The notes under the pieces: generated by a model | Databases searched by the model: none | Seen by the model: only the letters and a program-made list of their open reading frames with translations | What the model was told of the DNA's origin: nothing | From: Vanrija pseudolonga | Lineage: Eukaryota > Basidiomycota > Tremellomycetes > Trichosporonales > Trichosporonaceae | Direction: 5' to 3' | NCBI RefSeq assembly: GCF_020906515.1 | Contig: NC_085851.1 | Location: forward strand, 3,906,001 to 3,970,000 | DNA: 64,000 nt | Program-made: the position numbers and the translations under genes | Part shown: piece by piece, positions 23 to 63,911 of the stretch | Layout of the letters: the number at the start of each line of letters is the position of its first letter | Position numbering within the stretch: position 1 is the first letter of the stretch

Positions 23-1885
23 ATGGCAGCAGCCGCAGTCTCACAACAACGCTACGCGTCCCCATCTCACCCCCCGCCCACAATCCTCATCACACAGCAG
101 CCAGCCGAGCGGCCGCCCCTCGACCTCCTCTACCCAGCCAGCAGAGGCGAGTATCCCCTTTCGGCGGGCCTGCCATGCCTCGCACTCGCGGTCACAAAGC
201 AGACACCGCACACGTCGTTCCGCTCCACACCGCCATCGCCATCCACCTTCCGGCTGCCGGCGCCCGCCCTCTCCATCTCGCGGCTGTATGCCCTCACGCG
301 CGTGTACCATGTCCCATCTCAGAACGTTGTCGTGCTCACCTCGCCGAACCACCATGATGGCACCCGCGTCCGCCGCCTCATGGACCCTGTCCTCCTCCAC
401 CCCGCGGTCCACCCTGCCGTGGTCCAGATCATGCCCTTCCTCACCCGCGTCTCAGAGTTCACCGACGTCGACGTCGCAGGACCCACTGGCCGCCTGCTCG
501 AGTCGACGCTCGACCTCTGGCCCCTGCTCAACCCATACATGAACATCTGGAACCCCGCAGTCATGCGGTATATCCACGAATTCAAAGGGTGTCTCCCGCC
601 GTTCTGGTACAAGTGAGCCCGGGTCGCCTGCCGCTGTCGCTGCTCGCTGACCACCCAGAGGCCTGATAGAGTGTGACAACTGCTCGCATGACCACGGGCG
701 CGCCGGCAGCTGCCTCTTCGTCTCGTTTGGGCCGGACGCCTTCGAGTCGGACACCCCGGCCCTGGCACTCCGCTGTCTCTGTTGCGTCAACTTGCGCCAG
801 GCTTGCCGGTTCTCCTTCCGATGGCGGGGAGGCGTGGCACGCGACGTTGAGCTCCACGCGTTGCTACGGGGCCCGCATGGACTTGTCGATGTGGGCGACA
901 GTGTGTGGTGGGCAGGCAAGGCGACGCCCCTCGACTGGCATTCCTCCTCTGAGAGCGACGGGGCGTTGGGCCTGGACCTTGACGGGGGAAGGGGGCATCA
1001 CCGTGACGACCACTACAGTAGTGAGCCGTCGTTAGAAAAGACGAGGGGCTCGTTTCACGGCCCAATGGAGGAGGACCCCGGTCCCCTCTCGGCACCTCAA
1101 TATTCAGCAGTAGTTACTACCACTGCTCTGCATGGTGAGTCGGCCAGGCGGGGTATGAGACTGACGGAACAGAACACCTCGGTGCTACCCAGCACACCCC
1201 ATTGATCCACTTTACGCCTTCGAGTGCTGACTGGACGCCACGGGAACGGACACCCTCCATATCAGATACCCCAACAGTTGCACCACTTGCAAAGTCCTGG
1301 CTTCCGCATCACACGCCAAGGGCGTCAGTCAAACCTACACCCAAGTCTGTTCTCACACAGCATGCCCCTCTCGGCGAGCCAATACTGCGCCTTTCACCAC
1401 TACCTACCCGTCTGTCCCCACTGCACATCTCACCACCCACCCCGATCCACACAAGCCCGACTACACCCTCCAGCACACACACAGCCGACCTCACCCCGAT
1501 CCCCACCCCCGCGTCCCTCCACATCCTCCCATCCCCGCCGATGCTCCTCAACATCTCCGAGTTCCTCCCGTTCGAGGAGGCCGACGACCCGCTCCTCCTC
1601 CAGAACCTGCACAACGCGTTCGAGGCGAGCGCCAAGAGATCCCGCGAGGTCCTGGGCAAGACAATCTGTACCGCACGCAATGATCTCAACGTCCAGGTCG
1701 ACGCCGCGAGCGAGGTGTACTTTGCCAACGTGGAGCGCGCGTGCGACGAGTACAAAGCCAGAGTGGTGGCCGCGCTTTCGAGCCACAAGGCGCAGGTGGA
1801 GCGCATTAACGCGCATATCCGGGCTCTGGTGGGCATGGGGAAGGGGGAGAGGGAGGGGGAGGGAGCGGGGGCGGAGATGGAATGA
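23..1885 (+). CDS. LYP-CDNC family member A: N-domain, six-Cys module, coiled coil
   Basis: Three exons, 23-612, 659-1134 and 1173-1885, give 592 aa. I do not recognise a named family. Exon 1 (about residues 1-197) carries the LYP box (residues 36-38) followed by EYPLSAGLP, then a DPVLLHPA core and a closing LPPFWYK. A phase-2 intron (46 nt) joins it to exon 2, which starts KGLIECDNC near residue 202. Exon 2 holds the cysteine module (CDNC, SC, RCLCC, ACRF) and ends with VWWAGK. A 38-nt intron leads to a Ser/Pro/Thr-rich linker and a charged helical C-terminus (about residues 470-580, NISEFLPFEEADDPLLL onward) that looks like a coiled coil. The start is the first ATG of the open frame. The paralogue copies at 61-64 kb show the same layout. 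The cysteine spacing resembles a Zn2Cys6 cluster, so a nuclear role is possible but unproven. Confidence 0.82.
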
Positions 1886-2020
1886 TTGGGACGCTGTTCG
1901 TGGGGATCGCTATCGGAGGTGCCAGGACTCACTGACGTTTGGTGGTCCAGCCAGCTGCGATGTCCTCTGCCACCACCCCTGCTCATAACCACCTGAACCC
2001 GTCAAACAGCACCAAATAAC

Positions 2021-2105
2021 ACACTAATAGTCTAGTGGTTAGGATGCTTCTCTTCCATCTTCTGGTAGTTAAGAAGCGGCCGGTGTTCGAATCACCGTTA
2101 GTGTA
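2021..2105 (+). tRNA. tRNA-Gly(UCC), intron-containing
   Basis: The sequence folds as a complete cloverleaf: a 7-bp acceptor stem (ACACTAA/TTAGTGT), D arm GTCT/GGAT, anticodon stem CTTCT/AGAAG, and a T arm CGGTG-TTCGAAT-CACCG. The anticodon loop is 20 nt. Removing a 13-nt intron (2058-2070) after position 37 leaves CTTCCAA, anticodon UCC with the required U33. A and B boxes are present, and T-runs at 2128-2131 and 2135-2139 can terminate Pol III. The A1-U72 pair is unusual for an elongator glycine tRNA. A Glu(UUC) reading needs C33 and is less likely. Confidence 0.75.
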
Positions 2106-2330
2106 CAACTGCTGGAGCAGATCCAGCTTTTGCGTTTTTGGAGCTGACGACAAGGGGTGTGGCACATGGGCGCTGATTCGCTCGCCCCGCAGGGTGAAAA
2201 GGTAGGAGGAGGGACCACAGGTGACCGACCCTACATGCATTCTGCTATTGTCCATGATTCTACTTATGCTGATGGCTATAGTACACTGCGGTGCGTGTCT
2301 GGAGAAGTGCGACGCTCACCACTTTGCGTT

Positions 2331-2390
2331 GCGATGACTGAGATCCAAAGTGTCCCCGATGCGATGACTGAGATCCAAAGTGTTCCCAGG
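2331..2390. repeat. Two-copy 30-bp tandem repeat
   Basis: Two adjacent 30-bp units, 2331-2360 and 2361-2390, both start GCGATGACTGAGATCCAAAG and differ in only a few bases at the end. No coding role is seen. The unit lies between the tRNA gene and the 3' end of the secreted-protein gene. Confidence 0.85.
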
Positions 2391-2580
2391 GCGATTCGGG
2401 CGACCCAACCGGCCAGCTGGCCCCCGACGCAAGCAGCGCGCACAGTCGATCCCCTAACCTCCCTGACGCCTCTCCGTGAGCCGAGAAGAGAAGGAGTGGA
2501 GGCGGCGAGGCGTCGCCAGGCGCCACAGGGCCTCTGACGGCGTTTTTTCTTCGTTGTTTGTGTCCCCCAGCTTCGACAAC

Positions 2581-3129
2581 CTAGCTGGCCGTCGGTGCCG
2601 CCTCAGCCAGCAGTCCCAGCTCGGCCAAGTCGACCCCAGCGGGAGCGGGCAGCACCAGCCGGTCGCTGGCATACAGCTCGGCGTAGAGCCTTGCCTCGCT
2701 CGACCCGACGCGGAGCAGCGCACGCGCGAGCGCCTCGTCCACGCGCAGCGGCGTGCCGAGCGCGCTGCAGTCGAGGAGGAGGGCGTCGACGTAAGCGCCT
2801 GCTGCTGAGGGGGGCAGGGTGCGCGCGTCGCGGTGACACCAGAGGCAGGCTAGGAGGGCCGTGAAGGCTGTGGTCTGGGTGTGGGTCAGCGGGGAGGGGA
2901 AAGCTTAACGCACGTCGCACACGGCCAGACACAGCTCGTCGGCCTGCCAGCAGCTCGCGTCGACAACGCTCGTGATCGTGCAGTGGGTGCTGCATCTCGG
3001 ATCGGACCACAGCGGCGCGAGCACGGCGCGCGAGGAGGCGAGGGCGGCGCCGCGCTTGATCGGGGACGGCGCTCCGGCGGCGAGGAGCGCGTGGATGATG
3101 GCCGAGAGGAGCGTAATGGCCATCAGCAT
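2581..3129 (-). CDS. Small secreted cysteine-rich protein (unknown function)
   Basis: Two exons on the minus strand, 2914-3129 and 2581-2874, are joined by a 39-nt phase-0 intron (GTGCGT donor, CTGAC branch, CACCCAG acceptor) and give 169 aa. The N-terminus MLMAITLLSAIIHALLAAGA is a clear signal peptide. The mature part has about eight cysteines in the first two thirds (CSTHC, LCLAVC and LACLWC segments), then an Ala/Leu-rich tail. There is no transmembrane or GPI signal, so the protein is probably extracellular. A TATA-like TATAATTC (minus strand, 3181-3188) lies about 50 nt before the start. I do not recognise the family. A small secreted effector-like or cell-wall protein is one guess. Confidence 0.72.
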
Positions 3130-3903
3130 GGCGGTGGGAAGACTACGTGGAGATGATGATGCGAGTTGGACGTCTGACGGGAATTATACAGAGATCGATG
3201 GCAGACGCCGGGGTGATCTCGCTGGCTGGTGGAGGGCTTGGCTCGCCGGTGGCGCAGCAGGGTGTGGGGTGCCGCCGTGGTGCGGGGAAGGGCTCGGCGG
3301 TCGGTCGGGGCTGGCGTCGACTGGAGCCGGATCCATGCGTCGAGGAGCTGCGCATACTGCTGGATTGATGATGGGACTGGGGCAACTTGGCTTGTGAGGA
3401 GCGAGAGGAGCGAGGTGTTGAGAGCGGGGTGCCACTGGCCCCGGACCCGCGGCACTCGCGTCGGCTGTTTCGCCAGCCCAGCCCAAACGAAGCCACTGTG
3501 AAGCTCGCAGTGCAGCTCTACCGGACGCAGGGGCACGCCAGGGGGGATACGTTCACTATGTATCTACTGCAAGACAGCTGTGATGCGCTCGCTGCCTTGG
3601 CCACACCGCGCTGCTGTCATCGTCCGAGCCCCCAATCCAAGTGCGGTATGTCCCCGTGGACGACGGCGAGAGAGCGGCATGGAGGTGTGGTATGCAGGAA
3701 TCCTTGCGTCGCGACCGCAACCAGCACGAGCGAGTTACCACCTATGCACCTACACGGCAAGGTATGGGCTTGTGGGGTTCACACACTAGCCGTCGTCGTT
3801 GTCGAACAGCAGGACGGACACGGGGGGTATAAGGAAGGCCGCGACGCTGTGATCCCTCTGCCCTCGCCACTCGCCACTCGCCACTCACCCCCACACACAC
3901 ACC
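3130..3903. other. Divergent intergenic promoter region
   Basis: This lies between the 5' ends of the secreted Cys-rich gene and the 3904 gene. Open frames here lack family features or splice continuity. TATA-like boxes sit near both flanking genes (3181-3188 minus, 3828-3834 plus). Nothing else is supported. Confidence 0.6.
3828..3834 (+). promoter_or_regulatory. TATA box of the 3904 gene
   Basis: TATAAGG lies 76 nt before the ATG and is followed by a CACTCGCC-repeat, C-rich leader typical of fungal 5' UTRs. Confidence 0.6.
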
Positions 3904-4351
3904 ATGGCCCCGCTCTTCTGCTGCACAAGCATCACGCCGTACCGGCCCAAGACGCTGACCCACGAGCGCCTCTTCAAAGAGTTCATGTCGTGGGCCTCGC
4001 CCAACCCCGACATCGACCTCGACACCTCGCCCGCGCTCGACTCCGCGCCGTTCGCGGTCCAGCTCGCGCGGCAGGTCAACTACGGCCCGCTCGAGAGCAG
4101 GCGGTATTTCACGCCCGGGGACGCCGGGTTTGTCGAGGTCGGCGAGAAAGCGCTCGTGGACGCCAACTTTAAGAAACTCAACTCGTGCGTCAACGTGAGG
4201 TGAATGCTGACCCCGCGCCGCCAGGTTTAAGAACTTTCGCTGTGGCGCGCACAACCGCTTCTTCGAGGTGAATGTGTATCAGCTCGACCCGGTCAACACG
4301 CATCACTGGCGTTCCGACGTCGCGTGGCCCGGGACTGAGATTGATTTGTAG
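3904..4351 (+). CDS. Small unknown protein with N-terminal Cys pair
   Basis: Two exons, 3904-4184 and 4225-4351, give 135 aa. A 40-nt intron (GTGCGT donor, CTGAC branch, GCCGCCAG acceptor) restores one frame, so the protein reads KKLNSFKNFRCGAHNRFFEV across the junction. It has no signal peptide and no membrane segment. MAPLFCC at the N-terminus has two adjacent cysteines that could be lipidated. The C-terminal half is aromatic-rich (HHWRSDVAWPGTEIDL), suggesting a small beta-rich cytosolic fold. I do not recognise the family. Coding support comes from the spliced frame, the TATA box 76 nt upstream and the conserved-looking composition. Confidence 0.68.
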
Positions 4352-5023
4352 GCGAGTGTGAGTGGCGGAGTGGGGGTGCGTGGCGCGTCGCGCGTCGGCA
4401 GTGGACCGGCGTGCCCGGCTGCGGCGTCCGCGTACGACGTGTATAATCCCCTCCCGGCGGTTGGCTCGGAGTCTCGGAACGGCGGTGAGGAACATGTAAA
4501 GGAACGAATGAATGAAAGAAGTCTTGTTCGCCGCATGACCTCTGGGCCACTTATCAGTGCCAAGACCAAGTACCGAGTGGCACCACCGACATGGTTGACT
4601 GCTCGGGTCCTCCGATTCAGCGGCACTCCTCCCTCCATCCCACCACTCCTCCACACCACTAACTTAACTATACCGACACAACTGCGAGCGCAGCATTGCA
4701 TTCATGTTTCGTTGTGCTCGGCTCCTCGAGTCCGTCTGTCTTATCCTCGTCGCCGCGCACTCATGCACGCTGCTCGACGCGCCGACTGACGGCACACATT
4801 ACGCTCGCGACTGACCCAACCCCCGCTCACCACCACCACGCACCACTGCAAAGGTCCTCACTCGTCTCCGAGAAAGCTTGGCACGTCGCGCCAAGACACC
4901 GCTAGGTTGTCGGCACGCGGGGTCGACCGGCGAGATGGCCACGGCGTCCGCCGCACAGAGTGGAGTATAAAGGCGGCGCGTCGGGCTCCTCGACCTGCTC
5001 AACCAAAAACGCAAGCAAGCACA
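4352..5023. other. Intergenic region
   Basis: No gene is supported here. The last 60 bases hold the TATA box of the His/Cys-repeat gene. The open frames seen are short and lack splice or domain support. Confidence 0.6.
4966..4971 (+). promoter_or_regulatory. TATA box of the His/Cys-repeat gene
   Basis: A perfect TATAAA lies 53 nt before the ATG at 5024, within GAGTATAAAGGCGG. This suggests a strong, inducible promoter. Confidence 0.7.
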
Positions 5024-5629: not shown

Positions 5630-5709
5630 AGCAGTAGAGCAGTAGCAATTAGATGAATGATAACACCATTACGCACAGGCCAGGTTCATACAGCTGCTTC
5701 TACCGCGGG

Positions 5710-6195: not shown

Positions 6196-6480
6196 TCTGG
6201 ACGCGGGATGTGGTCAGTTGGCTGTGAAGCTGCGTTGCTGTGAGAAGGAGAAGAAGAAGAACCTCGGAACGCAGCTGGTGGTGCCGATGGGAGGAGAGGA
6301 CGGGCAATGCTGACACCGCTTGATGGCTTCTGATGTCGAGCGCGGGCTCGAGCTCGTCCTGCGGGCAGGGTGGTGTCGGCATGACGAGTGCGTCGGGGCA
6401 CGCTCCCCGTGCCTCTCTTCTCTGTCGTCACCAAGCGTCCATGCAAAACAACCCATCTATATACATGCGCCTACAAGTCC

Positions 6481-8282: not shown

Positions 8283-8387
8283 TGCTGGTGGTTGGGGTAG
8301 CGGTAGCTGTAGCTGAAGCTGCGGGGGTTGGGGGGTGGGTTGTTGTCGTGGGTTGAAGAATGTCGTCGCGAGGCCTGGGATGATGCG

Positions 8388-8393
8388 CTTATA
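8388..8393 (-). promoter_or_regulatory. TATA box of family member B
   Basis: TATAAG on the minus strand lies about 106 nt before the ATG at 8282 and is followed by an A/C-rich leader. It supports the downstream start over the longer open frame. Confidence 0.5.
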
Positions 8394-9230
8394 CCATTTG
8401 GTCTGGGCGACGACGACGTGAGATGCGGCCGAGACGGAACATGGGACACTCGCATCTTTGGGCGCCTTGGGCGGCTCGATGCGGGACATTTCGGGCGACA
8501 CGAGCAGCTGGGATCGCTTCTCAATGTCGACCTGCAACGCTTCGTGTGCACGAGCGCGAAAGCTCACGCCAGCAGCCGCGAGGTAGTGGTGGTGGCGCGG
8601 GCGGTGCGGGCGCTGGGGGTGAGGGTGAGGGTGGGGGTGCGCGGGGCGCGCCGGCAGCAGCAGCAGGCGGGAGCCGTAGAAGCGCGCCACGAGCTCGAGG
8701 GCGAAAGCGGCCGTCGACAAGAGCGACGGGGCGAGGAATGCCAGGCTCGCAAGTGCCAGCAGGGTGGGCACGATGGTCGTCATGCGCCGCGATGAGCCAA
8801 GCAGTGCGCGGCAGTACGAGCCAGGCGCGGCGATGACGGCGGTTGCTGTCGTGGTGGTGGTGGCGCGGGTCATGTCGATCCGGCCGGCTGGATACGCGCC
8901 ATCGAGGGGAGCGCGAGAGGGGCACAAGGCGAACAACAGCGGCCTGAAACGCAGTGCAGAGGGATACATAAGCCCAGGTGTGTGTCAAGGGATGTGGTCA
9001 TGTGGCTCGTGCAGATGCTGAAACGCGAGCAGCACCGCCGGCTTTGGCGGGTTGCGCGCGCGCTGCCACGTCCGCCACACTGGTGGCTCTGTGCGCCGCC
9101 ACGCGTCACGGACAACCTCGGCGTCGTCGGCCCACTAGTTTGCCCGCGGCAGCACGACGGCCCACGGCATCCGTCGAGATATGGGCACTGCCGAGGCCGC
9201 CCCTTGGTCGCTGCATGGGTGAGGGCGCGC

Positions 9231-36100: not shown

Positions 36101-37154
36101 GTCCGACTACAAGGCTGCCGAGGCCAAGCTCAAGAAGGAGCGCGCCGTCCTTGTCGCGTTCGACACGGAGATGGCCGACCTCGAGAAGGACCTCAAAGCC
36201 AAGCGCCAGGAGATTGTCGACGCCGAGCTGGCCCTCAAGAAGCTCGACCATGACCTTGTCCTTGTCACCAAGGAGCGCTCCTCCTCCGAGGCGATGAAGG
36301 AGAATCTCGAGAAGCAGTTCACGTGGATTCCGGATGAGCACCAGTTCTTCGGCAAGCCTGGATCGCCTTACGACTTTGCGGGCGTCAACCTCAACCAGGC
36401 TCGTGAGCAGTGCCGAGAGCTCGAGGCGCAGCACAAGGGCATGGGCCGCAAGATCAACACCAAGGTCATGAACATGATCGACAACGTCGAGAAGAAGGAG
36501 CAGGCATTGCGCAAGATGATGGCGACCGTGCTCAAGGACAAGTCCAAGATTGAGGACACGATCGCCGAGCTCGACCGTTACAAGCGCGACGCTCTTCTCA
36601 AGACGTGGGAGAAGGTCAACAAGGACTTTGGTCTCATCTTCGAGGAGCTCTTGCCTGGCAACTTTGCCAAGCTGCAGCCTCCCGAGGGCCAGGACCTGAC
36701 CGAGGGTCTCGAGGTCAAGGTCCGCCTCGGCAGCGTCTGGAAGGCGAGCTTGACCGAGTTGTCGGGCGGTCAGCGATCGCTCATCGCGCTCTCGCTCATC
36801 ATGTCTCTGCTCCAGTTCAAGCCGGCGCCAATGTACATTCTTGACGAGATTGACGCCGCGCTCGACCTGCAGCACACACAACATATCGGCCAGCTCTTCC
36901 GCACACGGTTCAAGGGCAGCCAGTTCATCGTCGTCTCGCTCAAGGAGGGTCTCTTCACCAACGCCAACGTCCTCTTCCGTGCACGCTTCCGCGACGGTAC
37001 CTCGGTTGTCGAGCGCACGGCCAGCCGCTCCGCCAACGGCTTCTATGAGGACAAGGAGAACAGCGCCGGCGGCGATGGTGACAAGGCAGCCGCGGGCGGC
37101 AAGAAGCGGACAGCAGCGGGTAGCAGCACACGCGCGCCTCTCACTGTTAGATAG
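33150..37154 (+). CDS. SMC2: Condensin subunit SMC2
   Basis: Nine exons (33150-33177, 33225-33260, 33313-33416, 33461-33498, 33538-33649, 33687-33959, 34009-34287, 34325-35689, 35727-37154) give 1220 aa. The first five exons are tiny. The N-terminus [20 protein letters not shown] and Walker A NGSGKSN (~34) form the head with [11 protein letters not shown] and the [20 protein letters not shown] block, an SMC2 hallmark. Coiled coils flank a hinge (~514-660). The C-terminal head has LSGGQRSL (~1089) and Walker [13 protein letters not shown] (~1114). With SMC4 and kleisin it forms condensin, which compacts chromosomes in the nucleus. A basic Lys/Ala/Gly tail ends the protein. All intron phases are consistent and the start matches family length. 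Confidence 0.97.
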
Positions 37155-37317
37155 ACTTGCCGCCGACGATTGTGCCTGGGTGTTTTAGAGCTTGTTGTAC
37201 AGTGCATTGCTACATGGATTGAGTATCAGCAGTTGTGGTGGCGTTGTGATCGGGATCAATTGGCAATGTGGCAGGGTATAGGCTGCCGCCCGCGCGAACT
37301 GACAATCCGTTTACCGG

Positions 37318-37525
37318 TAGCGGAGGAGCAGTGGTGGACACGGAGCAAGCGTCTTGCACGCTTGTCTCCCTCTGGACAGCTGAGCGAGGCCAGGGTTCGA
37401 ATCCCGGGCTGGGCAATTCTATCATCCCCTGGCGTTAGAGGGGCCGATGAGAGTTCGGGAGTGGTTGTGTGCCTCCTTTTGTGGGTGCGAACACTGCCTT
37501 GTGTGTGTGGGGACAGACACGTACG
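37318..37525 (+). mobile_element. tRNA-derived SINE, diverged copy S0
   Basis: An A-box-like GAGCAGTGGTGGACACGG (37325 region), an anticodon-like hairpin CAAGCG-TCTTGCA-CGCTTG, the block TCCCTCTGGACAGC and a B box GGTTCGAATCC (37394-37404) follow the order seen in copies S2-S4. Downstream, GAGTTCGGGAGTGG and a GTGTGTGTGGGG tail resemble the SINE body end. It is not a working tRNA, since no matching acceptor stem is found and the T stem has a mismatch. Confidence 0.55.
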
Positions 37526-37739
37526 TGACTAATTTTTGGCGACGCTTCTACTGACTGTACGTCGCGGTATGGCGTCAAACTCTTCCTTTTGCGGTCCGTG
37601 GAGCCGCGGAAAACTCTCCAGCGAGCCCGCCGCGAATGCAGTGCCACGCTGCCGCCTTCGTGAGGCGTCTCGGCTTGCGGCCACTGATTTCATTCATTTC
37701 GCGGCTGATACAGCGAATAAGTAGACCAGCAATAACTAG

Positions 37740-38699
37740 CTATCCCGTAGTACCAGCGTGCGACCCGTTATGAGGCCCTTCCTCGCTCTTCTCCTCGGCA
37801 GGCGCCTCGTCGCACTCAGCCGCGTCCACAGCCTCCGCACCCCCCTCGCCACCCAGGCCATAAACCTCGATCCCCGGCCTCTGTCCAGGCCACCACACCA
37901 TATCTCCGAGCTTGAGGTCGGGTGTGTCGGTGTGACTCACGACGCGAGCATGCAGCTCGACCCCGCGGAGCACGACCTCGCCGTACGAGAACACACAGCG
38001 TAACGAGAAGATACAGCGGCGCTTGAGCTCGGCGCAGCTGAAGCACTTGAGCGCGTACCCGGTCACTCCCGGATGGGTGCGAGGGTCGGTCATGCGGCCG
38101 AGGTTGACGAATATGCACGGGCAGTTGTACGTCTTGCCGAGCTCGATGCAGCTATCGCACTTGAGCTGGCCTCTGGGGCGTGTCAGCTTCATCGTCGACG
38201 AGAGGGGCACTCACTCGAAGAGATACGGCGGCAGGTCGTTACGAAACTTCTTCACATACCTGGCGGTAACTGCGTCGCTCGAAAGCAGGACATTCAGCGC
38301 CTCACGAGCAGCCGAAGCTTGGCCAAGAAGGTCGAGCACCCCAGCGCCAAATGCCCCGCTCAAGAAGTTGGCCGGGCGGAGGAACGGCAGACGAGGCGAA
38401 AAGCAGGGCAAGAGGGCCGGGTGGACGAGCGCCGCGTCGACCAAGTATCCCGAGAAACGTGTCCCCGGTGTGAAATGCGTCTCCCACACGTCGGCGGCGA
38501 CGTAAATGTGCGGGTCGGGGTCAAGCTCGGGGTTGAACCGCTCGTTCCACCTTGCGACGAACGGCGCGGGGATGCCTGCGCTTTGCGGGTATGTGCCGGG
38601 GCGGCGGTCGCCGTATAGCGTGTTCATTGGGACTGGGGGGTCGACGCGGCGCCGGAAGAGGGTGCGGGTGCCGTGTGGGAGGTGGGGCTTTTCGGCCAT
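37740..38699 (-). CDS. LYP-CDNC family member C (intact six-Cys module, no coiled coil)
   Basis: Two exons on the minus strand, 38215-38699 and 37740-38172, give 305 aa. Exon 1 carries LYGDRRPGTYPQSAGIP, DAALVHPALLP, LPFLRP and closes NDLPPYLFE. The conserved phase-2 intron is 42 nt (CTGAC branch). Exon 2 starts EGQLKCDSC and keeps all six cysteines: CDSC, NCPC, CFSC and RC, followed by VELHARVVSH and MVWWPGQ. The C-terminus is a short acidic tail (AAECDEAPAEEKSEEG) in place of the coiled coil of A, B, F and G. It is divergent from member D, with 813 nt between starts. C is the cleanest copy in this island. The function is unknown; the cysteine spacing suggests a Zn-binding module. Confidence 0.85.
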
Positions 38700-39512
38700 T
38701 GTGAGTGGTTGGCCTGGTGTTGAAGACGTTATGACGCTGTGCGAAGCACGACATACTGAATGCAGTGTAGCAGAGCGACAGAGCGCGCGTGTACGGTGTG
38801 GGCTGCGACATGGGCGATTTGGCAGCGCGTCGACCCCGCACTCCCACGTGCTGCTTTGGGGTCGGACGGCGGCGAGCGAGGGGGTCATAACCCACCCCGC
38901 GACGACACGATCACCAGCCGGCTCCGGCAGAGGGGCGGGCCGAGAGGAGTGTTCCATCCCAAACACTCTTGATGGCGGCGGGGGTTCGATTCCAACATGG
39001 ATTCAACAACTGTCGTTTTGCTAGTGCTACTCGACTTTCGGCATGGAGTCGAGCGCGGCGGCGTGCGGTCGTGGGCACTGGTGAGAAGTGGTTGCCGGGG
39101 GTTGATTCTTTTTGCTCATTTTTGTCCTTTTTGCACGGGTACAGCAGCTGCGCTGAGCTGAGATCCCATGCATTGAAGCACCGGCCTGCAACTAGCAGCT
39201 CGAACGATACTACATCCACACCGTATACAGCTCTACTTCAGTGACCAGGTCGGCCACGTTGGTCCTGCTAGAGGGCCGCGAAACAAATCATGCGGACGTG
39301 GCGTGTGTGTGTGGCGGCGTGTGTTGTGTGTTTTGGTGCGAGTGGCGGACAGGCTGAGTGGATGGATTGATTGATTGATTGGCGGCTATGTACCAGTTCT
39401 TCGGCATTACCACCCCCCCGCTGTCTCTATTCCTTCCCCTCACTCTCCTTCACTGGGTCTCACCACTCGCATTCTACTCTTCTCCCCCCAAAGCAAGCTG
39501 AGACCAGTCGCG
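38700..39512. other. Divergent promoter region between family members C and D
   Basis: No gene is supported. It holds a B-box-like GGGTTCGATTCC near 38975 preceded by a hairpin (GAGTGTT...AACACTC), possibly another decayed Pol III element, and a short ATTG-unit repeat near 39364-39381. The last ~100 bases are a pyrimidine-rich leader for member D. Confidence 0.5.
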
Positions 39513-40539
39513 ATGAGCTCCGCCACCGCGGACGCAACACACGCACTCACTGTGCGCACCGCCACGAGCACACCGAACCCCAATACGCTCTACTCTCAGC
39601 GCGGGACATACCCTGCCGCAGCTGGACTGCCGTCGGGCAACGGCTGCCCGTTTAATCAGCTTTTAGTCGACATGCCCTCTCGCCCAGCGACACCAGTGAT
39701 CACCGTCGACGATGCCCTGTGGTCCATGTACTTCGCCGACGGCGCACCATACCTCCTCGACCCGGTGGTCGCGCACCCTGCCCTGCAGCCGCACTACCTG
39801 CCCTCTCTGCCGTTCCTCAGGCCAATCGAGCACCTCGCCGGAGAGAAGGGCGCGGCAATCCTCGAGTCCCTTGGGGGCAGCGGCCCGTCCCCGGCCTCGC
39901 TCGCGTTCAACAAGCTACGCAACACCGACAACAAGACCCAAGCCCACTTCGAGTCTTACTCCCAAGACTTGCCGCCGTATCTTGTCGAGTGAGTACCGGG
40001 TGCGTAATGAAACTCACCGGAAGACCACAGTTCCCCTGCGACAACTGCGCCGTGAAGGACAAGCCCGGCAAGCCGTGCCCATGCTTCATGGTCAACCTCG
40101 GCCGCCTCACGACCGAAACGGAGGTGTTTGGCATGACGTCGTATCACCTCGGTTGCTACAACTGCGCCGCCAACTCTCTCTCGTGCAAGTTAGCGTTGCG
40201 CAGGAGACGCTCACCTTCTGGTCAGTCAACCTTCATGCCAGGGTGCATCTCTACCCCGAGGGCGAGGGGCTCACACGTCTCCTGTACTGGAAGGGACAGA
40301 AGCAAGGGGAGGTGTCGCGTCCCGTCACCGTCGCTGAGCGCAAGTTGGCCTCGCAATCCGGCAACATCGAGACCAAGTACGCTCCCGTTGCAGGTGGCAG
40401 GAAGACCAAGCGCCGACAGTCTCGTGGCCCCGAGGTTGACCTGCCATGGCTACGCGGTGGCAACATGGCGGCCCACTCCAGCACTGGACCTGGAAAGGCG
40501 ACCCACTCCCGCGACAAGTCGCGTGCCAAGCCATACTGA
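39513..40539 (+). pseudogene. LYP-CDNC family member D, frameshifted copy
   Basis: Exon 1 (39513-39988) encodes LYSQRGTYPAAAGLP, DPVVAHPALQP, LPFLRP and LPPYLVE. A 35-nt phase-2 intron (39989-40023) joins exon 2 from 40024, EPQFPCDNC, matching member C. The module proceeds through KPCPC, FMVNLGR and CYNC to LSCK at about 40188. There the frame breaks: the expected continuation (VSVAQETLTF, VNLHARVHLY) lies in the next frame, with no room for an intron (about 15 nt). The signature motif is also altered (LLYWKGQ for MVWWPGQ). The second frame stays open to 40539. A sequencing error is possible, but the motif drift favours a decaying gene. The start was chosen by alignment with C. Confidence 0.7.
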
Positions 40540-40749
40540 GGGTGGGTAGGATATAGGCCATCGTAGAGTCCTTGTCTTTGGAAGCACGTCTGTACAGCGG
40601 TGGCTGCTGGGTTTGCGACCCATAACTTGGATGCATCGCCAAAGATGCATTGGATAGAAGGCACCGTTCGTCACTCTCACAAAAGCAGAGACACGTGGCT
40701 TTGTGTGTGGACCGCTGGCTGAGTGTGTGGGTCATGTTGGAGTAAACCG

Positions 40750-40960
40750 GCAACCAAGCACCACACCCGCCTACCTAAGCGGGTGCCCAGGCCTGTTGTC
40801 CACAGCAGGTCGGGGGTTCGAGGCTGCTCGCAGGATCCGGACCTGCCCCAGGAGGAAGGGGGTTGGCGGCCGGGGTCCTGGAGCGGGCGAGGAGAACCTT
40901 TTGCGTGTGTGTGTGTTGCAGACACACCGCACGGGCCGTGTGGCACCTTTCGCACTTGTG
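40750..40960 (+). mobile_element. tRNA-derived SINE copy S1
   Basis: It has a hairpin CACCCGC...GCGGGTG, a B box GGGTTCGAGGC (40814-40824) and the shared body ATCCGGACCTGCCCCAGGAG followed by GAAGGGGGTTGGCGGCCGGG, then a GTGTGTGTGTG run. With S2 it also shares a 3' segment GCCGTGTGGCNCCTTTCGCAC. The A box is degenerate. Confidence 0.8.
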
Positions 40961-41320
40961 TGCCACATTGGCCCCGCACGCCCCAGACACACGCACGTTT
41001 GCGGGTAAGCAACTTTTTCGTTGCGGTACGTTGCATAACTATCGACCATGTGGAAGCTGGTTCAAGGCTTTATGCACATGACAAAGCAGTTGGCTGTTGA
41101 GCATCTTCTCGCATAGATGACCATGTCTGCACTTTACCCACGTCGGCTTGCAGTTCGGCCACGCGCCTGCAGACTCTGGATGTGGTGTCGACCATGCCGC
41201 CAGTAAATACGTGGACAGAGACACGATGTGAAAAGACTGGAAATTACGAATGCAGTCTACGGGGGCGTTTCGACACGAGATCAAAACGGACGCTGGCTGC
41301 CACCAAACATCGCACCACAA

Positions 41321-41521
41321 GTGTGAAGCTGTGGCGGCCACGGAATAGCAGTACTTCTGCAACGTCCCTCTGGTCCTCACAGCGGGCGTTCGATTCGCTG
41401 CGCTGAATCCGGACCTGTCTCAGGAGGAAGGAGATTGGCGGCCGGGGTTCGGGCGGGGAGGAGAGTCGTTTTTGCCTGTCGATGCACACATGTGTGTGCC
41501 GTGTGGCTCCTTTCGCACCCA
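41321..41521 (+). mobile_element. tRNA-derived SINE copy S2
   Basis: It has an A-box-like GTGAAGCTGTGGCGGCC, a hairpin GCAG-TACTT-CTGC, the block CGTCCCTCTGGTC, a B box CGTTCGATTCGC, then the body CTGAATCCGGACCTGTCTCA and GGAGATTGGCGGCCGGGG. It ends in GT-rich sequence and the GCCGTGTGGC segment also found in S1. Confidence 0.8.
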
Positions 41522-41872
41522 CCCCTTTCGCACCCCTTCCACACACCTCCACACGTCTGCCAGGGGTAATGAATACGAGTGTGAGCCCTTCGACCACATT
41601 TTTACTGTCTTTTCACGCTCTTGGAAGCACGCGCTGCATGACTGTTGGGCACTGCACTTATTCTCTGGTCCTGGTGGTGCTGAATTTCCAAGGTTTGCAG
41701 CCCACCTTCACCTGGGCTCCGGTGGTCGGTCAGGTCTAATCACAAATGCAGGCATCCGCGTTCTGCTTGCATCTAGCACCAAGATCGCTGGTAAGGCATT
41801 ACACACCGAATGCGATTAGCAGCGTGGGCGGAGGTTATAGCCACACAAGCCTGACCGAAAACATCGCATTTC

Positions 41873-42062
41873 GGTGTCGAAGTGGTGAACATGGGAAAGC
41901 AGTTCTTCTGCTCCTCCCCTCTGTTCAACACGGCAGTGGTTCGATTCCGCTCGCTGAATCCGGACCTGCCCCAGGAGGAAGGGGGTTGGCGGCCGGGGTT
42001 CGGGAGTAGGGCGAGTTGCTGTTTTGTGCCTCGTGGGCGAGTGCGTGTGTGTGTGTGTGCGG
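41873..42062 (+). mobile_element. tRNA-derived SINE copy S3 (best preserved head)
   Basis: The A-box region reads TGTCGAAGTGGTGAACATGG, the anticodon-like hairpin is AGCAG-TTCTT-CTGCT, the variable-arm-like block is CTCCCCTCTGTTCAACACGG and the B box is GGTTCGATTCCG. The body CTGAATCCGGACCTGCCCCA continues to GGCGGCCGGGGTTCGGGAG and a (GT)n tail. The head layout is that of a class II (Ser/Leu-type) tRNA. Confidence 0.85.
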
Positions 42063-42392
42063 GGTAGTGGGGAACTTGCAGGAGCATGATTTTTGTTTTG
42101 TCTCTCAAGGAAGGAAACCTAAGAATGTCTCGATTCGTGCTATCTATTCTCAATTTGCGTTGCGTTGAGGGGCTCTACAATCCGGAAAATTATGGCGACG
42201 AGTGATCCAGCGGCCACCATGTCACGAGCAGTATCCACTTCTGTGTCATTGTGTTGTTGAACCGAACCCTCAGGACGTGGGGACAGACGAGACACGCTGA
42301 ATCCCAAGTTCCGCGCCAAAGTATTACTGCATGGCGCTGGGTCATGTGATCTGCTTTTAGGCGACCCAACCCGTCACCAGCACACACCAGAC

Positions 42393-42600
42393 GGTGGGAG
42401 TCGTGGTGATACGGAAAGGGCGGTAGTACCGCCAACCCGTTGGTCACCACGGCGGCGGTTCGAGCCCGCTCGCTGGATCCGGACCTGTCTCAGGAGGAAG
42501 GAGATTGGCGGCCGGGGTCCGGGGGTGGAGGAGAGTTGCTTTTTTGTGGTGCGTGGTGTGTGTGGTGTGTGTGTGTGGTGCGTGCGTCGTGTTTGTGTGT
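42393..42600 (+). mobile_element. tRNA-derived SINE copy S4
   Basis: It has an A-box-like GAGTCGTGGTGATACGG, a short hairpin GGCGGT-AGT-ACCGCC, the block GTTGGTCACCACGGC, a B box CGGTTCGAGCCCG, the body CTGGATCCGGACCTGTCTCA through GGCGGCCGGGGTCCGGG and a (GTGT)n tail to about 42600. Confidence 0.82.
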
Positions 42601-42987
42601 TGTGGCGGCGCCACTGACCCTGGACACCACACACACCCACACAACCGCGCTCATGCTTCTGTTAGCTCCGCGCGAGCGATTCAAGCTGGGTGCAGCTGCA
42701 TGCACAAGATGCTGATATCATGCTTGCGGGCCAGTTGGCCTATACTGACGCTCTCGCTTGCCATTGACGGCAGAGTCTGAGATGCCAAGAAGATGTGCTG
42801 TCTGAGCTGTGTGCACGACATCCGTGTGTGTGCACGCCATGAGTGTGTGTTTTGGTGCGAGATCGAGTGGGTCGGAGCGAGCGTGGGACGGCACGTTGAC
42901 CGACACGTTGACTGACACACGCACACACACCGCCCACCACCGACTCATGTCGCCTTCTTGACATTGTACTCCTTCCACCAACACACC

Positions 42988-44400
42988 ATGTCTCGCATCC
43001 TGCACGCCAACCGAACAATGCAGCACAAGGCTCCCCCGATCCTGCACAAGATAGAGGGGCGCCGCACCGCGCTCACGAAGCCGCCGTCCGCGCGCGACCT
43101 CTACGGGGGCAAGTATCCGCGCCTTGTGGGCGTGCCAGACAAGGAGGTCGCCGAGTTTCTCGACAACGACATGCGTAACGACCGCTATCCGGTCCTGTGG
43201 GTCGACGACAACCTGTACCGCAGCTACAAGGAGGACCTGTTCGACCGCCCCCGCAAGCTCATGGACCCGGTGCTGGGCCACCTCCACCTCCATCCGCGGT
43301 TTGCCTGGCTGCTGCCCTTCCTCAAGCCCCTGCCCCGTCTAGCGGGTATGCAGGGCGGCGCGGTGATCGACCTGCTCAACAAGCCCGCCTCGGGGCGGTT
43401 CGCGCTCAACAAGCAGCGCTAACCAGTGGACGACAAGGCGCAGAAGTACATCGACGAACACGTCCACGACTGGGCGGCATACCTGTATGAGTGAGTCTGG
43501 CGCTTGCGAAGCGGTGCTTTGTCCGCCGAGCGAGGCGTGCGGGCTGGGAGTGAAGCAGAAACGCCAGGTGCCTGGGCAGCTGTGTGACACTGGATGACTG
43601 CCACATTGCCACTCGTCCGAAGTCCTGCTCGTGCTAACCACAACAGAGGCCAAATCCCATGCGACCGCTGCCTGTCCATCGCCCAGAACCACCAAGACGA
43701 GCCATGCCCGTGCTTCTTCGTCAACCTCGGCGGCGTGAACAAGAAGCAGGGTGTGCAGGCGTACAAGCTCAACTGCTATCGCTGCGCGCAGGTCAACGAG
43801 GCGTGCACCTTCACCGTGGGGCAGGGCCAGATTGTCTTCCGCAGGATCCAGCTGTACGCGCGCTTCGTCAGTAACCCCACCCGCGACATGTCACTGGAGC
43901 AAATGGTCTGGTGGCCCGGCATGGTGAAGGGCCCTGCGACGGAGGCGTCGCCTACGGTGCTTGATAACCCCGATGAGCGCCGTCGTCCGGCTAAGTGGGA
44001 CGCGCCGAGCACCGCCCAGCCTGCCAGTGGCATTGAGGAGCGCCGACGGAAGCGCCCCAAACGTGGAGCTGTCACTAGTGACGGCGGTGCCACGCACGTT
44101 CTGCCGTCCCTTTCTGGGGCCACTGACTTGCACAGCGCGCATGTACAGGCCTCTGTCTCGGATGGTGACAATGGTCTTGACTCTGGCACCATCCCGCAGC
44201 TGCATGCGGAGGACCAGGCCAAGCGTGGCCAACGTGGGTCATCAGACACTGCCTCGGGAGGCACCCAGCAAAAGCGTAAGCGTGAATCCACTCCGCTGGA
44301 GGACGTTCGCAACGAGTCGGCCGCCACACGTGCGGACAACCCCAAGGCCGCCGTCAACCAGGTGGGGTCGCTCCTCAAGCTGGCCTCTGACTCAAAGTAG
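42988..44400 (+). pseudogene. LYP-CDNC family member E, with a premature stop in exon 1
   Basis: Exon 1 (42988-43490) encodes LYGGKYPRLVGVP, LMDPVLGHLHLHP and LLPFLKP. An in-frame TAA at 43420-43422 falls where the paralogues have coding sequence. The frame then resumes (DDKAQKYIDEHVHDWAAYLYE) up to a normal donor. The phase-2 intron is 156 nt with a GCTAAC branch. Exon 2 (43647-44400) is fully open: EGQIPCDRC, EPCPC, CYRC and ACTF (all six Cys), then QLYARFVSNP and MVWWPGM. A polar tail with basic patches (RRRKRPKRG, QQKRKRES) looks like nuclear localisation signals. Without the TAA the protein would be 418 aa. Either a young pseudogene or readthrough is possible; TAA-C is not a known leaky context. 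Sequencing error is not excluded. Confidence 0.72.
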
Positions 44401-47998
<3,598 letters not shown>

Positions 47999-53039: not shown

Positions 53040-53203
53040 GGAGCAGGGGGAGGGGTCTTGCGGGGGTCATGTATCAGCAACAGCAGCAGGCATATGCATA
53101 AGAGTCGAGCGAGCCAGCGAGCCAGCCAGCTCAGTGGTCTAATCTTGTCGCTAACTCAGGGCAAGTTGGTGTCGACAAACTTGCAACCAACAACACCACC
53201 ACG

Positions 53204-58903: not shown

Positions 58904-59645
58904 ATGTCAAAGGATCCTGTGTGTTGTGGCTGAGCTTGGCCGCCACTGTTGTTCGAGCTCCGCAACGATAGAGCCACATCCAAGCATCACAGCTGCCTCT
59001 TCTTGTCTCTTCACATACCTAGAGCCAGGCCACCCCGGCCGCCGCCGCCTTGGCTGGTGGGGGCGGAATGCAGCCAACTAACTCCCCACGGATGATAATC
59101 TCGGGGACCAAGCAAGGCCTGTCTGGGTCACGCACGTCGCCGGTGAGCCTAGCCGCGCTACTGGAGACTGTGATGTGTGCATCCCCGACCCCCACCGGGC
59201 TCCACGGCGCCCATGGCTAGTATGGCCATCTTATCCGCCATCTGCATGTACGCCAGCATATCCGGCAGTGTGTGTCTGTCGCCATCAGCAAGGCATCCTT
59301 GCCAACAAACTGCCAGTGCTGACGTCAGGGCGCTGATAAATAATCTCGGCTCAGCCGCGGTCGTCGTCGTTTCAGCCAGCGCCCAGCCAGGTAGCCAGCG
59401 CCGACGCACACAAGCATCGCCGTCAACACATGCATCGTGAAGACGCACACTCACTCGCTCTCAACCTCACCTTTGACGACGCCGCCGTCTCTGCCCTCCT
59501 CATCCCCGCCCGTGCTTCTGCTGCTTGTTGCGCGTGTAAAAGAACCCCGCACGTCCTCGGTCACGGTCAAGCCCGCTGGCTGTTGACTGCCCCCTCGGCT
59601 ACGGTCCCAGCCGGTCCCTCGCGTCGCCGGCCCGGCCGACTAGTC
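58904..59645. other. Intergenic region
   Basis: No gene is supported. The frame of the MaoC-like gene is open back to 59430. GATAAATAATC near 59334 could be a TATA element for that gene. Confidence 0.55.
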
Positions 59646-60879
59646 ATGGCATCGCTCGTCATGCGACGTCGCCTCACTGCTGCAACTGCTGCATCCCTCT
59701 TAAGCACCAGCCGCACTTCCCCACAACACACCTTTCTCATCCCCACATCACTCCGTCTCGCACGACAAAACAGCACTACTACCACCACACGCACAATGTC
59801 CGGACCAGGCCAAGGATTCGAGTACGACCCCCAGGAGGTCAGCTGGCTCCAGCGCGATGCGCTCCTCTTCGCCAACTCGATCGGCGCGACGGCCGACGAG
59901 CTCCACCTCCTCTATGTGAGTAGTGACAGCAGCGTAGCGCGAGGTCACACGCCTTTCGGCATGGCCTGCAGTCCAAGACGAGCTGTAGGAGCCTCGCCGC
60001 TACCCCCGCTCCCTTGCGTGAGCACAACCGCTGACACCGCCCAGGAGCTCAACCCCAAGTTCGCCGTGTTCCCCACCTACCCCATCATCCTTCGTACGCA
60101 CCCCTCGCCGAGTAAGGCTAACAACCCCAGCTTTCAAGGGCACCACCCAGGAGGTGATCGACTTCTACGGCTCCAAGTTTACGCAGGCGATTCCCGGCGT
60201 GCCCAAGTTTGACCCGCGCCGCGTGGTCGACGGCCAGCGCTCGATCCAGGTGTTCAAGCCGCTCCCCACTTCGTCGGCCGGCAAGAAGTTCTACATCAAG
60301 AACAAGGTCGTCGGCGTGTGGGACAAGGGCAAGGCGTCGGTCGTCGACACGCAGCAGGACCTCGTCGACGACAAGGGCACGCTGTACGCGACTGTGCTCT
60401 CGTCGTCGTTCTACGTCGGCCAGGGCGGCTGGGGCGGCCCCAAGGGCCCCGCGGGCGTCAACTACCCCATCCCGTCGCGCGCGCCCGACGCGACCATCTC
60501 CAACCAGACGACCCGCGAGACGGCCCTCCTGTACCGCCTCAACGGCGACTACAACCCCCTCCACGCGACGCCCGAGCCCGGACAGAAGATGGGCTTTGGC
60601 GGCGAGATCATCCACGGCCTCTACTCGTGGAACTCGACCGCCCACGACCTCCTCCGCGCCGTCGGCGGCTCGGACCCCGCCAACCTCAAGGAGTACTCGG
60701 CGCGCTTTGCCAGCCCCGTCAAGCCCGGAGACAAGCTCACCACCGAGCTGTGGAAGACGGGCAACGTCGACAAGGACGGCTTTGAGGAGATCCTCTTTGT
60801 TACCAAGGGTGCTGGCGGCAAGCCCGTGCTCTCCAACGGCCGTGCTCTTATCCGCACTGCCGCGCAGTCCAAGCTGTAA
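59646..60879 (+). CDS. MaoC-like enoyl-CoA hydratase with PTS1, possible dual-targeted
   Basis: Exons (59646 or 59796)-59915, 60045-60093 and 60131-60879 encode 355 aa from the first ATG or 305 aa from the second. The hydratase-2 motif is LYRLNGDYNPLHATPE (Asp and His catalytic), with IIHGLYSWN following. An N-terminal half-hotdog has SIQVFKPLPTSSAGKKFYI. This two-hotdog layout matches the hydratase part of peroxisomal MFE-2. The C-terminus AAQSKL is a canonical peroxisomal signal. The longer form adds MASLVMRRRLTAATAASLL, basic and acid-free, a mitochondrial presequence. It hydrates trans-2-enoyl-CoA to (3R)-hydroxyacyl-CoA in beta-oxidation. The first intron is 129 nt, long for this window, and could allow regulated splicing. 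Confidence 0.9.
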
Positions 60880-61017
60880 GCTGTTGTATGGGAGAGAAGA
60901 TGTTTGTAGGTCGAGGACCATGCAGGTATGAAGTGACGGGGACACACACGCTCACATGCTAACTCTACTGCTAACTGAGCTGATCTACTGATACAGACAC
61001 ACGCCGTCACTCACGCG

Positions 61018-62229
61018 CTACTCAGCGACACACTCAAACGGCACGGCGAACGCGCGCACCTTGTCATTAAAAGCCTCGACCTCGGCCCTGAGCCCCGCCT
61101 CGTCCTCCACGCGCGCAATCTTCTCGTCGCGCAGGCGCGCAGCCTCGGCACAGCACGCGTCGTAGGTGGCCTGCGCGGCTTCGAGGTCACGCCGCGCGCG
61201 GGCAACGACCTCGTCGTAGCTGGCCTCGACGGCGGCCTTCTCCCGGCGCGCAGCGGTGCGGCGGGACGCAATGTCGCGCTCGAGCTTGAGCCGGTTGAGC
61301 TGCAGCGAGCGTGCGACGGGGTCCATCATGGCGTTGGTGAGCAGCGGGGTCGGGGCAAAGTTGGACAGCGAGAGGAGCTTGGGCAGCGCGGCGGGCGCGG
61401 CGTCGAGCACCTTGACGCGCTTTGGGATAGGGTCGGAGCGCGCGAGCAGCCGCTTGCCCTTGCTCTTGCCCTCCCACCACACTTTGTCCTCGGTCTCCAT
61501 CTTGCCGGGACTCTCGAACATGAGCGCGTAGAGCTTGACGCCCTCGGCGAATCCCTGCGCGGCGGAGAAGGTGAAGGTGCAGCTTGCGCCGGTCGCATGG
61601 CACCTATCGCACTCGAGCGGGGTCTTGGGTTCGGCGGTGTCGGGGTCACGGATGGGCGCGTAGATGGCCGAGAAGGTACAGCTGCACGCCTCGTCGTCGT
61701 CCTCGCCGCTGCCCAGGAAGCAGTTGTCGCACGTGAGTGCGCCGCTGGGTGGGTCAGCCTGGACGCCATCCACAGCAACCCACGTATACCACAGGGGGCG
61801 GATCTTGTGCGCGTTTTCCGCGAGGTACGCCGCGGCCTCGGGGTTCGACGTGTCGAGGGAAGGCGCGTGCGGGCCGAGCTTGAGCGCGAGTTGTGGGTCG
61901 ATGTGCCGCTGCCTGGCTCCGATGTGGGCCAGCGGCTCCGGGCAGAAGAAGGGCATGTGGCGCACTACTTCGTCGTGGAGTACGGGGTGCGTGAGCACGC
62001 GCGGCGCGAGGGCTGCCTCCCCGCGCCGAAGGGGCGACAGGGGGTCGTCGCGCAGCGCCCACTCGTCGGCGTGTAATTCGTGGTTGTCTTCCTCGACTGG
62101 GCGGAGGCGGAACCATGGCGCCGCGATGCGCGGCAGGCCTGCGCTGAGGGGATAGCGCTGCGTTGGGTGCGGGTAGAGGGTGTCTGCGTGGGGCGTGTGG
62201 GCGGGGTGTCGCACGGTGAGGGTCTTCAT
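61018..62229 (-). CDS. LYP-CDNC family member F (full architecture)
   Basis: Two exons on the minus strand, 61784-62229 and 61018-61744, give 390 aa. Exon 1 has LYPHPTQRYPLSAGLP, LTHPVLHDEVV, MPFF and closes IRPLWYT. The phase-2 intron is 39 nt, 3n and stop-free, so retention adds 13 residues without a frameshift. Exon 2 begins GALTCDNC and keeps all six cysteines (CDNC, CSC, CDRC, SC), then VKLYALMFES and VWWEGK. A basic patch (PKRVKVLD) precedes a continuous coiled coil (about residues 280-385, LQLNRLKLERDIASRR onward). The start at 62229 follows the family; the frame is open 108 nt further up. F and G are tandem and only 219 nt apart. Confidence 0.86.
   Translation of the reverse strand: MKTLTVRHPAHTPHADTLYPHPTQRYPLSAGLPRIAAPWFRLRPVEEDNHELHADEWALRDDPLSPLRRGEAALAPRVLTHPVLHDEVVRHMPFFCPEPLAHIGARQRHIDPQLALKLGPHAPSLDTSNPEAAAYLAENAHKIRPLWYTWVAVDGVQADPPSGALTCDNCFLGSGEDDDEACSCTFSAIYAPIRDPDTAEPKTPLECDRCHATGASCTFTFSAAQGFAEGVKLYALMFESPGKMETEDKVWWEGKSKGKRLLARSDPIPKRVKVLDAAPAALPKLLSLSNFAPTPLLTNAMMDPVARSLQLNRLKLERDIASRRTAARREKAAVEASYDEVVARARRDLEAAQATYDACCAEAARLRDEKIARVEDEAGLRAEVEAFNDKVRAFAVPFECVAE
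61745..61783 (-). other. In-frame 39-nt intron in member F
   Basis: GTGGGT donor, GGCTGAC branch and CACCCAG acceptor on the minus strand, at the conserved phase-2 position. It holds no stop codon and is a multiple of three, so a retained transcript stays translatable. Confidence 0.75.
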
Positions 62230-62448
62230 TGTGAGGGTGTCGCTGGAGAGAGGAGTGAGGAGAAGGACAGTGTGAGGTGGGAAAGGAATGATGAGGAGGA
62301 GGAGACGAGGAGGTGGAGAATGGGGGGGGGGGTCCACTTGCCCCTCCAGAGGTCTTCTACACGGACGCGTTCATGCGGATACAGTGCACTACACTATGAC
62401 AACAACAGCTCGAGCTGTATACTAATATAACAACCACCCACACGCCAC

Positions 62449-63911
62449 TCACTCACCACGCGCGCGCCAAAGCGGGCCGCGCCACGCGGGCCCCTCGCCA
62501 ACCTCATACCTCACCCCGGTACCGCGCGCGAGGGCCACACGGCGGTCCTTCTCGCCCTCAATCTTGGCGAGTTCGCGCTCGCGCCACTCGTTGGCCGCCT
62601 TGCGCAGCTCGGCGTCCGTGTCGTGCGCCTGCTGCAGCAGGTATGCGGCGCGGGCGATCTTGTCGGCGTACTCGGCCTCCACCGCCTCCGTCTTCCTCAT
62701 CGCCTCGTCGATCGCGTTGCCTAGCTTCGCAGCTGAGGAGGGGCTCAGCGGTCCTGGTGCGGGTGCGGGGGTGTATGTTGGTGTTGGAGTGTTGAGGGCG
62801 GTTGACGACGGGGTGTTGAGGGCCGTTGATGCGCTCGTGGAGGGCTCGGAGTAAGGGGTCTTCCGTCAGCGAGGCCACGTTGCCACATACCATGCCGAAC
62901 GCGTCCTCGTCGTCTGAGATAGTGACGACTGACGCCGCCTTGCGGGGCCTGCCGTACTCGGTCTTGACCTGCACGACAGCCTCGGCCTTGCGCTTCCCCT
63001 TGCCCTTCTCCTCGGTGGGCTTGCCCCCACCGCCCCCGCCGGGCCCCTTGCCCTCCCACCATACCATCTCGCCGACGTCCATCTGGGACGCGACGCGACG
63101 GCGCTCAAACACGACAGCGTAGAGCTTGACCCCCGCGTGATACCCGCCCCCGTGGTGGAGCGAGAAGCGGCAGTCCACCCCGTCGAGGTGGCACAGGTCG
63201 CATGTGAGCGGGATCCCTGGCGCATCCGAGTCGGGGTGCCGCAGCGGCTCGTACACCGACGAGAAGGCGCAGCTGTGCGCTCGGTCCAGCTGGCCAGTGG
63301 GGCTGGTGTGCGAGGTGCAGTTGTCGCAGCTCACTCCGGCCGGTGGGCTGAGCGTGGGTGGTGAGCTTCGCAGGCGGGCATGTCACCACTCACCGGTACC
63401 ATATCGGCCGAACAGCGTGCTCGAACTGCGCGACGAACGCCCTCACCTCGTCATTGGCCATATCGACAGCCGGCAGATGCGGGCCCTGCACGCGCATGAG
63501 GAGGGACACGGGCACGTCGCTTCCGTCGTCGCCGAAGCGCGTGATCCGGCGGAGGAAGGGCACGTACTCCGCGTTCTGGGGCAGGAGGGCGGGGTGGACG
63601 AGCACGAGCGGGGAAAGATGGGGCACGCCGCCTGGGAACCGGCGCGCGCCATGCTGCTGGAGGTAGAGCGCGAGCGCGCGCTCGAGCGCGCGCTTCTCGG
63701 CGAGCAGCTTGACCTTGTTGTCTGCCTCGGGGGAAGGTTGCGGCGTGCGGCTGACGGCGACGCGGGGCCCGCCGGCTGAGATGGGATAGGGCTGGGCGGA
63801 GCTGAAGAGGACCGCGAGCGGCGGCTGGGGCGTGTGTGGGAGCAGGACGAGGGCCTGTGTGCGCGCCTTGGGCTTGGGCTTGGGTGCTGGGACTGGGGGT
63901 GGGGAGGGCAT
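62449..63911 (-). CDS. LYP-CDNC family member G (full architecture)
   Basis: Three exons on the minus strand, 63394-63911, 62891-63347 and 62860 downward (62449-62859), give 461 aa. The LYP box is altered (LFSSAQPYPISAGGP), then LVHPALLPQNAEYVPFL and VRPIWYR. The conserved phase-2 intron is 45 nt. Exon 2 reads RPPAGVSCDNC with SCAF, CDLC and DCRF (all six Cys), then KLYAVVFE and MVWWEGK, followed by basic GKGKRKAE and an acidic ISDDEDAF. A 31-nt intron (GTATGT donor, CTGAC branch, GGAAG acceptor) switches the frame. The last exon has a Thr/Pro linker and a coiled coil (AIDEAMRKTEAVEAEYADK to EKDRRVALA, about residues 370-440). Without this intron the frame would lose the coiled coil, so it is well supported. 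Confidence 0.85.
62860..62890 (-). other. Very short (31-nt) intron in member G
   Basis: GTATGT begins and CGGAAG ends the segment, with CTGAC in between. Exon frames agree only if these 31 nt are removed. This is close to the lower limit known for fungal introns. Confidence 0.7.

Follow-up and report, generated by a model that had tools for sequence, protein, structure and literature searches.

What is the gene family that recurs along one stretch of the Vanrija pseudolonga (Trichosporonales) genome, how did it arise and what might its products do? The stretch analysed here, the window, comprises 64,000 nucleotides (C3:3906001-3970000) on a 4.26-Mb contig of a 24.87-Mb genome assembled in nine contigs. 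An earlier note had proposed that seven of its loci, A to G, form a dispersed, apparently lineage-specific expansion that it could not match to a named family.

A clustered family of at least nine loci

Loci A to G were modelled by hand, and the reading frame was open in A, B, C, F and G and not in D and E. Two of the window proteins carry database names, LOC62_03G005070 and LOC62_03G005085. We also prepared exon-1 and exon-2 profiles from the window members, two further loci (H and I) and two orthologues from V. albida, and used them to search the window and a further 30 kb of sequence in six-frame translation. The profiles matched the seven loci, H and I with E-values of 7e-63 to 1e-15; beyond these nine, nothing in the sequence scanned had an E-value below 0.2 and no tenth member was found. 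Together with the gene models and the core alignment, these data directly support the seven loci as real and homologous, as the note had proposed.

The membership of seven was too low. We searched the V. pseudolonga genome with eight queries (C, F, E, A, G, B, H and I; D was not among them). Single queries recovered part of the family and the combined queries recovered nine loci, which is a lower bound because the search scores its best candidates; the genome thus contains at least nine. Nor are the members dispersed: eight of the nine are clustered within 68.5 kb of C3, and I lies on another contig.

All nine loci follow a common plan in which an exon encoding an N-domain is followed by a phase-2 intron and an exon encoding a cysteine module. 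The core alignment comprises the LYP / YPxxAGxP box, the HPAxxP...PF[LF] core and the module; the N-domain motifs were found in most members, and the module usually ends with a [VL]WWxG segment. The first intron separates the LPPFWY-type closing segment from the first CxxC. Its phase and place are the same in all seven window loci, as originally noted, and also in H and I (the latter by inspection); a second intron is found in A, B and G. The proposal that the motifs are shared throughout held for the plan, although B has four of the six cysteines, D reads YWKGQ where others have VWWxGK, and E reads VWWPGM.

The individual members

The gene model of A (+ strand; exons 23-612, 659-1134 and 1173-1885) encodes 592 aa comprising the N-domain, the module with VWWAGK, a linker and a proline-free tail; it contains one cysteine besides the six of the module. 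An NCBI protein, P0002 (LOC62_03G005070, 201 aa), has an exon 1 identical to that of A and a different C-terminal end, PDRV. Judged from this end, P0002 would fit a splice acceptor two bases further on than that of our model. A tRNA-Glu (CTC) gene lies directly downstream of A (2021-2106, + strand).

B (- strand; exons 8282-7789, 7505-6956 and 6882-6481; 481 aa), whose V. albida orthologue is P0005, carries the four-cysteine module and a proline-free tail. Upstream of it, 8283-8873 (- strand) remains open in the same frame and encodes a hydrophobic segment. In the alignment, the annotated V. albida protein contains this stretch too and starts 172 residues further upstream. The conservation of the segment suggests that B might be membrane-anchored, with 8283-8873 as a possible N-terminal extension yielding a longer protein.

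Members C, D and E are neighbours. The model of C (- strand; exons 38699-38215 and 38172-37740) encodes 305 aa, with a CPC-containing module and VWWPGQ and without a long proline-free tail. Near C, at ~37320-37420, is a stretch with a B-box-like GGTTCGAATCC, for which neither ARAGORN nor Rfam called a tRNA. Locus D (39513-40539, + strand) has exon 1 at 39513-39988 and exon 2 from 40024, with a frame break near 40181. The frame up to ~40181 corresponds to exon-2 profile positions 2-58 (E 1e-15), and a second frame past this point to positions 56-105 (E 0.43); the break could reflect a decayed gene or a sequence error. E (LOC62_03G005085; + strand; exons 42988-43490 and 43647-44400) has a basic tail and an in-frame TAA at 43420-43422. 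The NCBI protein P0001 is without 27 codons at this TAA, equivalent to an 81-nt GT-AG intron at 43346-43426. Either reading of E, an in-frame stop or an extra intron, is possible.

At the far end of the window, F (- strand; exons 62229-61784 and 61744-61018; 390 aa) has, according to its gene and structure models, a predicted 91-residue helix near the C-terminus. The model of G (- strand; exons 63911-63394, 63347-62891 and 62859-62449) encodes 461 aa with a proline-free tail. Outside the window, H lies 2.4 kb upstream (C3:3901404-3903599, - strand). Its 698-aa model has the same length as NCBI LOC62_03G005068 (P0004), with which it agrees as judged by eye. The genome search placed I at C2:49839-50767, ~50 kb from the contig end.

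The cysteine module

The spacing C-x2-C-x(9-15)-C-x(20-23)-C-x2-C-x6-C was observed directly in eight of the nine members, B being the exception; in CPC and CSC variants, the third cysteine is the last Cys of the variant. The first CxxC reads CDxC in eight members and CHRC in H, and the first loop, of 9-15 residues, is poor in basic residues, that of F being acidic. In all eight six-cysteine members but D, the sixth cysteine is followed by x-F. The fifth and sixth cysteines are absent from B, its V. albida orthologue and one relative tagged 'lgn'. Since B is conserved with four of the six cysteines, the full site is not required in every member. AlphaFold2 modelled the module of E alone at moderate confidence (pLDDT 75.4, pTM 0.66), with several strands and with helices at residues 6-14 and 44-48, each starting at a CxxC pair. 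From the cysteine spacing, we suggest that one or two zinc ions are bound by the module, which would offer a protein- or nucleic-acid-binding surface.

In agreement with the earlier note, no named family emerged: Pfam and NCBIfam yielded none at the cut-off in the members scanned, and PDB sequences yielded none from the members searched. We compared the module with the Zn2Cys6 cluster (PF00172, Zn_clus), whose consensus spacing is C-x2-C-x6-C-x(5-12)-C-x2-C-x(6-8)-C and whose classical form has a first loop of six residues and a basic helix. The six-cysteine order is alike and the second half, C-x2-C-x6-C, fits the consensus; the first half and linker depart from it, with a longer first loop and a longer linker (eight of nine members; B has four cysteines). 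The Vanrija module is also unlike the cluster in lying mid-protein, in having few basic residues in its first half, in closing with [VL]WWxG and in its predicted extra strands; to our knowledge, the classical cluster is without strands. PF00172 was not listed at E ≤ 5 for seven members (A, B, C, F, G, H and I) or six modules (A, B, C, E, F and G), a setting at which the HMMER filters still drop most matches above about 0.1. Similarly, PF00172 matched the genome 147 times at E ≤ 10, in part below its cut-off, and never at the nine loci. Because profile matches were absent and the spacing differs, we rejected filing the module under Zn2Cys6 and liken the two in cysteine order.

Tails and basic patches

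Near their C-termini, A, B, F, G and H contain proline-free stretches of 83-107 residues; the longest such stretches in C, D, E and I span 34-55 residues. The tail helix prediction comes from F, the sole member folded: its model has a helix at residues 304-394, with a block pLDDT of 95-96 at residues 311-350, and an N-domain of low confidence (blocks 1-15, pLDDT 28-58). Compared with 200 shuffles, the C-terminal 125 residues were alike in A and B (z 9.7) and in F and G (z 6.9) and weakly similar for A-F, B-F, A-G and B-G (z 2.4-3.2). The resemblance of the H tail to the others did not stand out from that of shuffled sequences (z 0.2-1.8). A Fourier test for a hydrophobic period of 3.4-3.7 residues was not significant for any tail: of 300 shuffles, 41 scored as high for A, 147 for B, 249 for F, 44 for G and 73 for H. 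The tails thus gave no support for a canonical coiled coil.

Basic patches occur in E (RRRKRPKR), F (PKRVKV), H (SKKKKAKVE) and I (RPRRRRRGE). A, B, C and D contain isolated K/R matches only, in the tail, in the N-domain or past the frame break of D, which need not be nuclear signals; G has no such match. No secretion signal was apparent by eye.

Relatedness and range

BLASTP of the cores gave E-values of 9e-35 for C-D, 3e-37 for C-E, 2e-34 for A-B, 2e-39 for F-G, 9e-15 for A-C and 2e-19 for A-F. Of all pairs of the nine, the weakest were D-F (0.007), D-G (0.03), E-G (0.04) and D-H (0.14), and E-H gave no match. As a query against its own genome, H recovered only G, F and C (E 4e-4 to 0.03), and this narrow, weak reach marks it as the most distant member. 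A tree of 11 cores supported the groups F+G (95/94) and C+D+E (98/99), left A, B and I unplaced, and put H on a long branch whose position is uncertain. Members of each supported group lie next to one another in the genome, consistent with old tandem duplication.

A and B are directly observed to be conserved in V. albida. The orthologue of A, Q8F55_001754 (P0008, 593 aa), has 89% core identity, and that of B, Q8F55_001749 (P0005), has 87%, with 86% over the whole query; both are themselves uncharacterised hypothetical proteins. In A, the module is 92% identical, the N-domain 87%, the tail 76% and the linker 51%. This contrast between linker and domains is not general, since the linker of B is as conserved (86%) as its domains (82-89%). 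By contrast, paralogue identity is 23-40%. The proposed expansion, a real multi-gene family, is therefore an old, maintained set and not a recent burst. The two V. albida genes are five locus tags apart and are both listed on a 3,929,487-nt contig; this database listing, as distinct from DNA, fits a conserved order of A and B.

We searched ~5.8 billion proteins by a method that requires shared exact words; for one query, scoring was limited to the 8000 candidates with the most words in common. Eight homologues were found: three from V. pseudolonga, two from V. albida and three tagged 'lgn', which we take to denote Logan assemblies. Within this search, no relatives were found outside Vanrija and the 'lgn'-tagged entries. 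Because of the shared-word requirement and the scoring of best candidates, this absence is suggestive only. The claim of lineage specificity accordingly holds within the reach of the protein database and the shared-word search, the DNA scan being of the family's own genome.

Possible roles and origin of the family

We tentatively favour the reading that the members are intracellular, probably nuclear, zinc-module adaptors or regulators derived from old tandem duplication. Duplication of one ancestral plan would have yielded a family so far seen only in Vanrija; the module would hold zinc and offer a surface for protein or nucleic acid, and the tail would gather copies or partners, that is, mediate oligomerisation. 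The metal-site cysteine spacing, the basic patches and the helical tail all suggest a role inside the cell, probably in the nucleus, and, given the patches of E, F, H and I, our best guess is a nuclear adaptor or regulator. The hydrophobic segment upstream of B, if part of the protein, would clash with such a role. It is conceivable, if unlikely, that the module represents a new, independently evolved or far-diverged binuclear-type metal fold confined to Vanrija, with its nine carriers forming a clustered set of nuclear regulators and B a partial-site variant.

It is rather more doubtful that the proteins are diverged Zn2Cys6 (GAL4-type) factors that bind DNA through the first CxxC half and dimerize through the helical tail. 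The classical spacing of the second half and the CDxC first pair, each in eight of nine members, would suit such factors, as would the helices at both CxxC pairs in the E model. The missing PF00172 matches, the long first loop poor in basic residues and the strands after the cysteine region in the same model argue against them. A precedent exists in PacX of Aspergillus nidulans, which is reported to have a zinc cluster away from the N-terminus and far from a long predicted coiled coil and to be almost exclusively nuclear (PMC4832277). The likeness is by description, and there are differences: the coil of PacX is N-terminal to the cluster, the cluster fits the consensus, and homologues occur within the Leotiomyceta (PMC4832277).

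The clustering, the divergence of the paralogues and the broken copies are also what a self-recognition cluster might display, with paralogues diversifying their surfaces in allorecognition, incompatibility or defence. Such a cluster is improbable: the strong conservation of A and B across species is unlike rapid diversifying selection, and Pfam scans of four and then seven members revealed no NACHT, HET, TIR or similar domain. Lesions in two of the nine copies (the frame break of D and the in-frame stop of E) and the repeat element between D and E could alternatively mark fragments of a mobile element that has spread and is decaying or domesticated, such as a gag-like or transposase-associated zinc-knuckle protein. 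This origin we also consider improbable. A and B share 87-89% core identity with their orthologues in V. albida, all nine loci have the first intron in common, and the members are divergent and mostly clustered. Moreover, Pfam identified no reverse transcriptase, integrase or transposase in 25 chosen ORFs of 174; the search for terminal repeats covered 36800-45200 only.

Its recognisable plan, clustering, at least two conserved members and lack of a named relative in the searched libraries make this family a tractable case for studying how a new protein module arises and persists in one genus. Should the module prove to be a diverged zinc cluster, the range of spacings known for a major class of fungal regulators would become wider.

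Neighbouring genes and a repeat between D and E

Among the same 25 ORFs, genes between the members encode an MFS transporter, Mediator 13, a starch-synthase-like glycosyltransferase, an SMC protein, an aldehyde dehydrogenase and an amino-acid transporter. An ORF at 47276-47998 (+ strand) contains a ricin-B-type beta-trefoil lectin domain (PF00652, E 1e-23).

Between D and E, at 40700-42620, a repeat occurs four times at intervals of 519-572 nt, with cores at 40849, 41421, 41972 and 42491. The 27-nt core had 39 genome matches at ≤3 mismatches, and a reversed control had none. Of the 39 copies, 19 were aligned; in these, TTTT lies downstream, followed mostly by GT-rich sequence, and most have a B-box-like GTTCGAnnC ahead of the hairpin described below. 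ARAGORN called no tRNA in the 19. Rfam gave no family at the gathering score, its two matches (E 0.13 and 0.31) being far below. RNAalifold predicted a 21-pair 3' hairpin around AGGAGGAA in the aligned copies, in which 97.7% of cells pair and seven pairs are changed on both sides. Its covariation score exceeded those of all 500 shuffles and all six slid versions, against which a structure derived from the same alignment is favoured. The repeat looks like a candidate Pol III-transcribed structured RNA or tRNA-derived SINE.
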